The position numbers and the translations under genes are program-made. From Alphaproteobacteria bacterium (GTDB lineage Bacteria > Pseudomonadota > Alphaproteobacteria > Rhodospirillales > WMHbin7): DNA of 64,000 nucleotides. The notes beneath the pieces were generated by a model. The model was not told where the DNA came from. It ran no database searches and saw only the letters and a program-made list of their open reading frames with translations. The stretch spans positions 310,001-374,000 of the forward strand of contig JADGAX010000002.1 in assembly GCA_015231795.1 (NCBI GenBank). Direction: 5' to 3'. Shown one piece after another: positions 2,204-4,707 of this stretch. Within the stretch, counting starts at the first letter, position 1; every line of letters begins with the position of its first letter.

Positions 2204-2875
2204 ATGATGAATCGCCGCCCCTTCCTGTTTGCAGCCCTTGCCGCTGGCTTTTTGCTGTTCCAGTCCGTCCCCTTGGCCCGCGCCGCAAGCGTCAAGGCCA
2301 AACCCGCCAGCCTGACCGAAAGCCAGAAAGCGGAAGTAAGCCGCGCCGAGACTTATCTGAACGATATGCGCACGCTCAAAGCGCGCTTCTTGCAATCGGC
2401 CCCGGACGGCAGCTTTGCCCAGGGCACTTTCTATCTGTCGCGTCCCGGCAAGCTGCGTTTGGAATATGATCCGCCCAGCCCGATGCTGATCATCGGCACC
2501 GGCCATCTGCTGGTCTATCACGACACCCAGTTGAAGCAGACCTCACAAATGCCCATCGATTCCAGCCCGGCGGGCATTCTGGTGCGCCAGAAAATCGAGC
2601 TGACGGGGGGCGACGTCACCGTCACCGATTTTGCCCAGAAAAGCGGCCTTGCGCACATCACCCTGGCCCAGACCGACGATCCGCAAGCGGGCAGCATTAC
2701 CCTGATTTTCACCCGCGAACCTTATCAACTGCGCCAATGGATCGTTCGCGACCCGCAGGGCCAGTTTACCACCATCACCCTTTCCGACGCCCATCCGGGC
2801 ATCGCCATGGATCAAAAACTGTTTGTTTTCAATGATCCGAATGAGGCTTCGCCCTACCAGCGAAACCTACAGTAG
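2204..2875 (+). CDS. lolA: LolA-family outer-membrane lipoprotein carrier
   Basis: A protein of 223 residues with a signal peptide (Arg-rich start, hydrophobic stretch about 9-20, ARAAS cleavage region about 25-29). The mature part matches LolA: ETYLNDMRTLKARFLQSAPDG at the start of the fold, GTFYLSRPGKLRLEYDPP and repeated beta strands ending in DPNEASPY. LolA carries lipoproteins through the periplasm from LolCDE to the outer membrane. Two start codons lie side by side (2204 and 2207). It stands 31 bp after the stress-protein gene and is followed by an inverted repeat and a small-RNA candidate. Confidence 0.88.
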   Translation: MMNRRPFLFAALAAGFLLFQSVPLARAASVKAKPASLTESQKAEVSRAETYLNDMRTLKARFLQSAPDGSFAQGTFYLSRPGKLRLEYDPPSPMLIIGTGHLLVYHDTQLKQTSQMPIDSSPAGILVRQKIELTGGDVTVTDFAQKSGLAHITLAQTDDPQAGSITLIFTREPYQLRQWIVRDPQGQFTTITLSDAHPGIAMDQKLFVFNDPNEASPYQRNLQ

Positions 2876-2878
2876 AGT

Positions 2879-2901
2879 AGTCATGCGCGCTATGCATGAC
2901 T
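2879..2901. repeat. Perfect 8-bp inverted repeat just after lolA
   Basis: AGTCATGC, a 7-nt loop, then GCATGACT. It begins four bases after the lolA stop and has no T-run, so it could be a mRNA 3'-end stabilising hairpin or a protein-binding dyad rather than a full intrinsic terminator. Confidence 0.5.
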
Positions 2902-2924: not shown

Positions 2925-2953
2925 TTGCTTTCAAACTTTAACCACATACATAA
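2925..2953 (+). promoter_or_regulatory. Candidate sigma-70 promoter of the small RNA
   Basis: TTGCTT (2925-2930), a 17-bp spacer, then ACATAA (2948-2953). Transcription would begin near 2960, directly at the first hairpin of the small-RNA candidate. The match to consensus is moderate; the position is what makes it convincing. Confidence 0.45.
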
Positions 2954-2959
2954 CATGAA

Positions 2960-3079
2960 GGGCCGAGCCGCAATGGCTCGGGCCTGTGAGGCCGGTTTCC
3001 CCTGCCGAGCCTCACTGCTCCCCCCCCAAGGAGCAAGCACGGCGCCCGGTAACCCCCCTTACCGGGCGCTTTTCTTTTG
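2960..3079 (+). ncRNA. Putative structured small RNA with C-rich hairpin loops
   Basis: About 120 nt, almost entirely made of four consecutive hairpins. Stem 1: 2961-2969 pairs with 2975-2984 (one bulge). Stem 2: GTGAGGC 2986-2992 with GCCTCAC 3009-3015, plus an inner CGG/CCG stem, loop TTTCCCCTG. Stem 3: TGCTCC 3016-3021 with GGAGCA 3030-3035, loop CCCCCCAA. Stem 4: 3042-3052 with 3059-3069, loop CCCCCC, followed by TTTTCTTTT, a strong intrinsic terminator. Three of the four loops expose runs of C, as in alphaproteobacterial anti-Shine-Dalgarno small RNAs (alpha-r14/CcsR type), although the exact CCUCC motif is absent. It lies between lolA and the FAH gene and no plausible protein fits. I do not recognise a named family. 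Confidence 0.6.
3042..3078 (+). terminator. Intrinsic terminator of the small RNA
   Basis: An 11-bp perfect stem (GCGCCCGGTAA with TTACCGGGCGC) with a CCCCCC loop, followed directly by TTTTCTTTT. Confidence 0.85.
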
Positions 3080-3127: not shown

Positions 3128-3817
3128 ATGGGTTTCGTCTTTTCGCCGCCTGTTCAGCCTTCGGTGCCGGTCGCTGGAACCAAAGATCTGTTTCCCGTGC
3201 GCCGCATCTGGTGCGTGGCGCGCAATTACGCGGCGCATGCCCGCGAGATGGGGGCGAACCCCGACCAGGAGCCGCCCTTCTTTTTCGCCAAGCCCGCCGA
3301 CGCCGTGGTGATGAACGGGGCCGTGCTTGCCTATCCCAGTGCCACTGCCAATCTGCACCACGAGGCCGAGCTGGTGGTGGCTCTGAAATCTGGCGGCCAG
3401 GACTTGTCGCAAGACAAGGCGCTAGATTGCGTGTTCGGTTATGCGCCAGGCATCGATCTGACGCGCCGCGATCTTCAAGAACAAGCCAAGAAGGCGGGCA
3501 GGCCCTGGGACGTCGCCAAGGGCTTCGACCATTCCGCCCCCATCGGCGTCCTGCGTCCGGCCAGCCAGATCGGCCACCCCGCCAAGGGTTCCATCACGCT
3601 TAGCGTGAACGGCCAGATGCGCCAGTCGGGCGATCTGTCCGACATGATCTGGCCGGTGGCGGACGTGCTGGCCCATTTGTCCAAGCTGGTCCGCCTTGAG
3701 GCGGGCGACCTGATCTTCACCGGCACGCCCGAAGGCGTGGGGCCGCTGGTCAAGGGCGATCATGCCCAGGTCGTGATCGAGGGCGTGGGGTCGCTGGACA
3801 TAACGATTGCACCCTAA
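3128..3817 (+). CDS. Fumarylacetoacetate hydrolase (FAH) family protein
   Basis: A protein of 229 residues from the ATG at 3128, which has a Shine-Dalgarno-like GAAAGGGA seven bases upstream; longer readings run into the small-RNA terminator. FAH-fold features: VRRIWCVARNYAAHAREMG near the N-terminus, FFFAKPADAV, the metal-binding HHEAELVVAL (E-x-E), LIFTGTPEGVGPL and a final VEGVGSLDITI. Family members cleave or decarboxylate acylpyruvates and related keto acids, often in aromatic or sugar-acid breakdown, with Mg2+. Single-domain proteins of this length include acylpyruvase and oxaloacetate decarboxylase types. The substrate is not decidable, and the neighbours do not help. Confidence 0.85.
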   Translation: MGFVFSPPVQPSVPVAGTKDLFPVRRIWCVARNYAAHAREMGANPDQEPPFFFAKPADAVVMNGAVLAYPSATANLHHEAELVVALKSGGQDLSQDKALDCVFGYAPGIDLTRRDLQEQAKKAGRPWDVAKGFDHSAPIGVLRPASQIGHPAKGSITLSVNGQMRQSGDLSDMIWPVADVLAHLSKLVRLEAGDLIFTGTPEGVGPLVKGDHAQVVIEGVGSLDITIAP

Positions 3818-3897: not shown

Positions 3898-4707
3898 ATG
3901 CGTCTGGTTACTTGGAACATCAATTCGGTGCGCTTGCGCTTGCCGCTGCTTGAGCGACTGGCGCATGAGGTCAATCCCGACGTGATCTGCCTTCAAGAAA
4001 CCAAGGTCGAAGACCATCTGTTTCCCAAGGACGCCATCGCTGAACTTGGCTTTCCTCATCAGGCTTTCGCTGGCCAAAAAAGCTATAACGGCGTGGCGGT
4101 GCTCTCGAAGCGGCCCATCCTGTCCAGCCGGGTCCAAAATTGGTGCGGGCGCGTTGATTGCCGCCATCTGATCGTTTCGCTCGATGGCGGCGTCGAGTTG
4201 CACAACATCTATATTCCGGCGGGCGGCGATCTGCCCGATCCGGAGGCGAACGACAAATTCGCCCACAAACTGTCATTTCTGGAAGAGCTGGCCCAATGGT
4301 ACGGATCGGCCTATGCGTCCAGCGACAAGCTGATCTTGGTGGGTGATTTCAATGTCGCCCCGCTCGAAAACGATGTTTGGTCGCACAAGCAGATGCTGAA
4401 AATCATCAGCCATACGCCGGGCGAGGTCCTGCGCCTGAACCGTTTCCAAGACTCGTTGGGCTTCATCGACGCGCCAAGGCATTTCGTGCCGCCGGATCTG
4501 AAACTTTACACTTGGTGGAGCTATCGGGCGGCCGACTGGGCGGCCTCGGATCGCGGACGGCGCCTCGATCACATTTGGGTGACGCCGCCCCTCAAAAGCG
4601 CCCTGGCGGGATCGATGGTGGTGCGCGAGGCCAGAAGCTGGCCGCAGCCTTCCGACCATGTGCCGCTGATCGTCGATTTCTATTCGGACGAAATGTTCAG
4701 CCGATAG
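3898..4707 (+). CDS. xthA: Exodeoxyribonuclease III
   Basis: A protein of 269 residues, the usual length. Motifs of the EEP nuclease fold are all present: WNINSVR at the start, CLQETKV (metal-binding Glu), VGDFNVAP (catalytic Asp/Asn), RLDHIWV and the terminal SDHVPL His. It acts in the cytoplasm as an AP endonuclease and 3'-5' exonuclease in base-excision repair. The ATG has GAAGG seven bases upstream. Its 3' end overlaps the convergent response-regulator gene by 28 bp. Confidence 0.93.
   Translation: MRLVTWNINSVRLRLPLLERLAHEVNPDVICLQETKVEDHLFPKDAIAELGFPHQAFAGQKSYNGVAVLSKRPILSSRVQNWCGRVDCRHLIVSLDGGVELHNIYIPAGGDLPDPEANDKFAHKLSFLEELAQWYGSAYASSDKLILVGDFNVAPLENDVWSHKQMLKIISHTPGEVLRLNRFQDSLGFIDAPRHFVPPDLKLYTWWSYRAADWAASDRGRRLDHIWVTPPLKSALAGSMVVREARSWPQPSDHVPLIVDFYSDEMFSR

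Follow-up and report, generated by a model that had tools for sequence, protein, structure and literature searches.

The region between lolA and the next genes downstream raises the question of whether it encodes a regulatory RNA of its own and, if so, to which known family this RNA belongs. The window analysed here is the whole stretch of 64,000 nucleotides. An earlier note on this DNA read positions 2925-3079 as a small RNA candidate; an RNA of approximately 120 nt is indeed supported, but the interval comprises the putative promoter plus the RNA, which itself would begin at approximately 2957.

Architecture and conservation of the RNA

The predicted fold of positions 2950-3079 has a minimum free energy of -72.5 kcal/mol, compared with -45.5 ± 3.4 kcal/mol for 200 dinucleotide shuffles (z = -7.9), none of which (0/200) reaches the native value. 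Four consecutive hairpins, SL1 to SL4, are arranged on the + strand within 2957-3079 and leave few free bases, which bears out the stack of four hairpins described previously (Table 1). The three C-rich loops of that description are likewise present in the fold, namely UUCCCCU in SL2, CCCCCCAA in SL3, and CCCCCC in SL4, the last capping the terminator. Once the closing U-G pair of SL2 is opened, its loop becomes the TTTCCCCTG of the earlier note. In the fold, the terminator hairpin at 3041-3070 is followed by UUUCUUUUG, and the same hairpin was recovered by a terminator pattern scan. The promoter-like start is weaker than had been claimed: a loose pair, TTGCTT/CATAAC, exists with an 18-nt spacer, but a strict sigma-70 scan gives no promoter match for this RNA. 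Because this best pair occupies 2925-2954, the RNA probably starts near 2957 and is approximately 120 nt in length. An alignment of the homologs does not bring their true starts into register, so that the promoter consensus derived from them is weak.

Table 1. Features at the small RNA locus, in window coordinates
Feature	Position	Strand	Basis or remark
lolA, outer-membrane lipoprotein carrier	2204..2875	+	Pfam LolA, E 3.3e-27
Putative operator GTCATGC-GCGCTAT-GCATGAC, perfect inverted repeat	2880..2900	.	core ATGC-N7-GCAT, ~75 nt before the RNA
Weak promoter-like pair TTGCTT (2925-2930) / CATAAC (2949-2954), predicted	2925..2954	+	best loose sigma-70-like pair, spacer 18
Small RNA, almost certainly of the RusT family	2957..3079	+	~120 nt, start predicted; fold, model R2 match, covariation
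SL1, variable stem, GCAAU loop	2959..2985	+	fold; 7/7 modelled pairs with compensatory changes
SL2, conserved C-rich loop UUCCCCU at 2997-3003, putative seed	2986..3015	+	fold, loop conservation
SL3, C-rich loop at 3022-3029, lineage-specific	3016..3035	+	fold
SL4, intrinsic terminator, CCCCCC loop at 3053-3058, U-rich tail	3041..3079	+	fold and pattern scan
Fumarylacetoacetate-hydrolase (FAH) family gene, between RNA and xth	3128..3817	+	Pfam FAA_hydrolase, E 8.4e-55
xth-like exodeoxyribonuclease III	3898..4707	+	Pfam Exo_endo_phos, E 1.2e-31

A DNA search of 60 relatives yielded clear homologs, and a first alignment of ten homologs already contains changes on both sides in 15 of the 25 predicted pairs. 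A covariance search of the kind suggested earlier, using model R1 built from this alignment and a match threshold of E ≤ 0.01, finds the RNA in 135 of the 199 genomes of the order and in 61 of 385 genomes spread over the class. Each genome generally has one strong match, and one is present in the window's own genome. Where a genome has a second match, its E-value is mostly above 1e-4, and the lowest-scoring of these are probably noise. At one locus (L049, genome G223, family f68), the RNA and its upstream sequence are identical to those of the Dongia mobilis locus L140, and f68 is probably the Dongia family.

In the alignment of 92 distinct homologs, compensatory changes occur in 21 of the 25 modelled pairs, and 91.6% of the cells are paired; in SL4, the paired share reaches 97.4% of the alignment cells of distinct homologs. 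Changes on both sides are found in 499 cells of this alignment, compared with 153.7 ± 15.4 after shuffling; none of the 500 shuffles reaches 499, and the signal is lost when the pair partners are slid by one to three columns. Because the alignment had been fitted to the model, a second test was made without it, in which the six-base arms of SL2, taken from each RNA's own fold, give a pairing of 0.88, compared with 0.60 ± 0.015 when the arms are swapped between homologs. The RNA structure is under selection. The earlier note had named a lack of compensatory changes as an observation that would speak against its candidate; such changes are present, and the candidate is therefore a conserved structured small RNA.

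When folded individually, 88 of 101 distinct RNAs form exactly four hairpins. The CCCC run is present in the SL2 loop of 94 of 96 distinct homologs and in the SL4 terminator loop of 100 of 101, both counts running somewhat high, as these loops were part of the search model, whereas the SL3 loop carries it in only 5 of 85. The C-loop of SL3 is therefore a peculiarity of the genus to which the window belongs and of few others, so that of the three loops previously treated as a unit, those of SL2 and SL4 are conserved and that of SL3 is lineage-specific. The family rule is two C-rich loops, located in SL2 and in the terminator. In family f10 (L013 and L016), with RNAs at seemingly the same locus, the SL2 C-run is lost, with the loop GCCAAAA in L013, and the terminator loop is extended to C9-C10, a pattern that is the reverse of that in Caulobacter.

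Probable identity with RusT

In the open-access literature, RusT is an iron-stress small RNA that has so far been studied only in Caulobacter. In C. crescentus, it is a 118-nt RNA with four stem-loops (CCNA_R0199), encoded in the gap between lolA and xth (Vogt et al. 2024, PMC11005374). Hfq binds RusT at nt 72-87, corresponding to SL3, and the SL2 loop, with its C53, has been tested as the site that binds the targets. The targets are mRNAs of TonB-dependent receptors of the outer membrane and of ompW; its action on fused reporters is in trans, with RusT as the acting RNA, and Hfq is needed to repress the receptor and ompW fusions. Furthermore, RusT is induced by iron chelation and zinc, and its promoter is bound by NtrX (PMC11005374 for all of these properties).

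The earlier note had described the RNA as a form that it did not recognise; by locus, by the match of model R2, and by the UCCCCU of the SL2 loop, the form is recognisable as RusT. Caulobacter genomes were recognised by 97-98% identity to the ParB of PDB 6T1F, which we take to be that of C. crescentus, and the sequence upstream of xth was read. If the numbering of the RNA in the Caulobacter lolA-xth gap starts one base into the conserved ACGCATGG, SL3 (GAGAGACUAGACUUUC) spans precisely nt 72-87, and a C within UAUCCCCU, part of the SL2 loop, is at nt 53, in agreement with the published coordinates. Model R2, trained without any Caulobacteraceae, was used to search the xth loci of 21 Caulobacteraceae entries. 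The best nine matches of R2 in this group are all situated at the RusT position, with E-values ranging from 3.9e-6 (L247) and 7.2e-5 (two Caulobacter loci) to 1.2e-4 to 7e-3 for the others, and the R2 alignment places the same UCCCCU loop of SL2 in the Caulobacter and window RNAs. In the window, R2 covers 2958-3079 with 88.1 bits, the window sequence itself being in the training set. The loci nearest C. crescentus (e.g., L259) give no R2 match at E ≤ 10, though their congeners are matched, and the link to C. crescentus therefore runs through close relatives. Taken together, the shared lolA/xth locus, the R2 match, and the common SL2 loop indicate that the window RNA is almost certainly a RusT ortholog, and that the family would extend far beyond the Caulobacteraceae.

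Neighbouring genes and the upstream operator

Upstream of the RNA, lolA is accompanied by a universal-stress-protein gene, and downstream of xth there is a response regulator gene on the opposite strand. A mechanical ORF at 3077 has a TTG start directly after the terminator; the start of the FAH gene is more likely ATG 3128. Of 104 homologous loci, 82 have LolA upstream and 58 have xth downstream, in each case on the strand of the RNA, and LolA, Xth, or the convergent response regulator is at the expected place in 99. The first gene recognised on the downstream side is xth in 48 of these loci, the convergent regulator in 21, and FAH in 16. It lies on the same strand in 64 of the 104, at a distance of 49 nt in the window, an arrangement that would suit a leader acting in cis on the FAH or xth gene that follows, as an attenuator or riboswitch with the last hairpin as a regulated terminator. 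Such a leader is very unlikely, as in the 21 loci with a convergent neighbour there is nothing to lead, and the role is therefore excluded as a general function. In addition, the same-strand neighbour varies between FAH and xth while the RNA persists, the conserved parts are the loops, with no alternative antiterminator, and RusT itself works in trans.

On the other side, 82 nt separate the RNA from the end of lolA, which has the same orientation, and the gap contains a perfect inverted repeat with the core ATGC-N7-GCAT. In the upstream regions of 101 homologs, which had no part in building the covariance model, this core is present in 42, compared with 0.12 expected, and other spacers are found 0-3 times; its start is mostly at -77 to -74 relative to the RNA. 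In many homologs, a second copy is located 22 bp downstream, forming tandem 15-bp palindromes with half-sites phased by approximately 11 bp. Simultaneously, the motif GCA-N9-TGC, formed between the two palindrome copies, is present in 40 of the 101 regions, compared with 2.7 expected. The window carries a perfect, extended first palindrome and a degenerate second copy. These upstream palindromes constitute a strongly conserved putative operator. GCA-N9-TGC was proposed as an NtrX site by Lemmer et al. 2020 (PMC7240162), while other authors favour CAAN2-5TTG, for which no clear enrichment is seen in the 101 homologous upstream regions; judged from these motifs, control of the putative operator by NtrX is a reasoned guess.

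The closeness of lolA on the same strand, together with the empty strict promoter scan, could also mean that the RNA lacks its own promoter and is no more than the tail of the lolA transcript with its terminator, or a fragment processed from the 3'UTR of lolA mRNA. This is quite improbable. The strongly conserved putative operator is situated in the gap and fixed at -75, NtrX binds the promoter of RusT, and the RNA persists in several lineages in which lolA is 0.85-3 kb away. Moreover, a plain terminator needs no three further hairpins, two of which have been shown to covary.

Proposed mode of action and comparison with known small RNAs

The preferred reading, which is held with good confidence, is that of a trans-acting regulatory RNA of approximately 120 nt, orthologous to Caulobacter RusT, with its own promoter, operator, and terminator, SL2 as the main seed, and SL4 and SL3 as extra seeds. 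Transcription would begin at its own promoter between lolA and FAH/xth, under the upstream putative operator, and would end at its own terminator. The SL2 loop would offer UCCCCU as the main seed to pair with AGGGGA or G-tracts near the start codons of targets, as RusT does with Hfq on its targets, while the C6 terminator loop and, in the window, SL3 would act as extra, partly redundant seeds. For this organism, we infer the expression, regulator, Hfq dependence, targets, and extra-seed role; Hfq dependence is uncertain because the Caulobacter SL3 sequence is not conserved.

Pairing of the loops with the ribosome-binding GGAGG, as proposed earlier, is poor, at -3.5 to -5.9 kcal/mol against -8.2 kcal/mol for CCUCCUCCC. 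According to duplex energies, the best partner of the SL2 loop is CAGGGGAAA/AGGGGA, and loops of C6-C8 pair best with G6. With such poor pairing to GGAGG and good pairing to AGGGGA and GGGGGG, the loops look like G-tract seeds, as in 6C/B11, and not like anti-Shine-Dalgarno mimics. The window's genome contains only one Plug-domain TonB-dependent receptor, and the regulon must therefore differ from that of Caulobacter. This receptor (L307, ~1360-1380) has GAGGGGAUCAAG directly before its ATG, which complements the core of the SL2 loop exactly over six bases. Since AGGGGA occurs at the Shine-Dalgarno position in 6 of 275 sampled genes (2.2%) and the duplex energy of the receptor is unremarkable (rank 74 of 275 genes), the receptor is a lead only; in target prediction on the 275 called genes, nothing trustworthy stood out.

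More tentatively, RusT may be the Caulobacter form of a class-wide RNA with two redundant C-seeds, one of them the terminator loop, and an ancient tandem NtrX-type operator, either seed being lost by lineage: the terminator C-tract in Caulobacter and the SL2 C-run in family f10. If this is true, the terminator is a stop signal and a target-binding seed at once, and the conserved C-tract in its loop suggests that one hairpin can both terminate transcription and serve as a seed for base pairing. RusT homologs were previously described by its authors as conserved in closely related Caulobacteraceae (PMC11005374). With matches across the class, and in two of every three genomes sampled from the order, RusT becomes a widespread alphaproteobacterial small RNA. 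A covariance model, a putative seed, and a putative operator are thereby provided for an RNA without an Rfam family at threshold, as the scan of the whole window brings no family up to its gathering score.

The loops of CcsR-type RNAs are anti-Shine-Dalgarno CCUCC motifs, and these RNAs often adjoin a DUF1127 gene. The previously suggested kinship with alpha-r14/CcsR extends to C-rich loops in an alphaproteobacterial small RNA but does not hold beyond this: Rfam gives no ar14 or CcsR family for this stretch even at E ≤ 10, the loops of the window RNA are plain C-runs in place of CCUCC, and there is no DUF1127 gene among its neighbours. Among the other candidates, ChvR was ruled out because it is confined to C. 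crescentus, where it lies in the region of recF, and GsrN was ruled out by location and architecture. In the case of GsrN in Caulobacter, an exposed cytosine-rich loop also pairs with G-rich targets, but its homologs lie by a general-stress locus, use the 5' loop only, and are controlled by the EcfG/SigT sigma factor (PMC5869019).

The 6C family (RF01066) gives a sub-threshold match on SL3 and SL4, with 29.4 bits (E 0.034) against a gathering score of 47. The 6C RNA B11 of actinobacteria likewise presents C-runs on its hairpins, with G-tracts as their presumed partners, and either of its two C-rich loops suffices (PMC10470900); it differs in phylum, locus, and hairpin number. On these likenesses, the window RNA might be an unrelated C-rich small RNA of the 6C/B11 type that shares the lolA-xth site with RusT by chance. 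Such a coincidence is extremely improbable, given that the 6C gathering score is not reached, that R2, trained without Caulobacteraceae, scores the RusT position significantly with SL2 included, and that other genera of Caulobacteraceae (L247 and L248), with Brevundimonas-like ones among such forms, carry the intermediate C-rich terminator loops CCCTCC and CTCCCC.

In comparison with these systems, RusT shares with the window RNA the flanking genes lolA upstream and xth downstream on the same strand, a length of 118-120 nt, and four stem-loops, the last of which is the intrinsic terminator. UCCCCU in the SL2 loop is common to both, its seed role in the window being putative. There are also clear differences between the two forms. 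The window RNA has a C6 terminator loop and a C-rich SL3, and Caulobacter has neither; the Hfq-footprint sequence of the Caulobacter SL3 is replaced in the window by a GC-rich SL3, while a U-rich tail is present. Meanwhile, an FAH-family gene is inserted between the RNA and xth in the window, and the Caulobacter loci carry a 15-bp palindrome of different sequence, TGTGACATTCTCACA, at the equal distance of -75.
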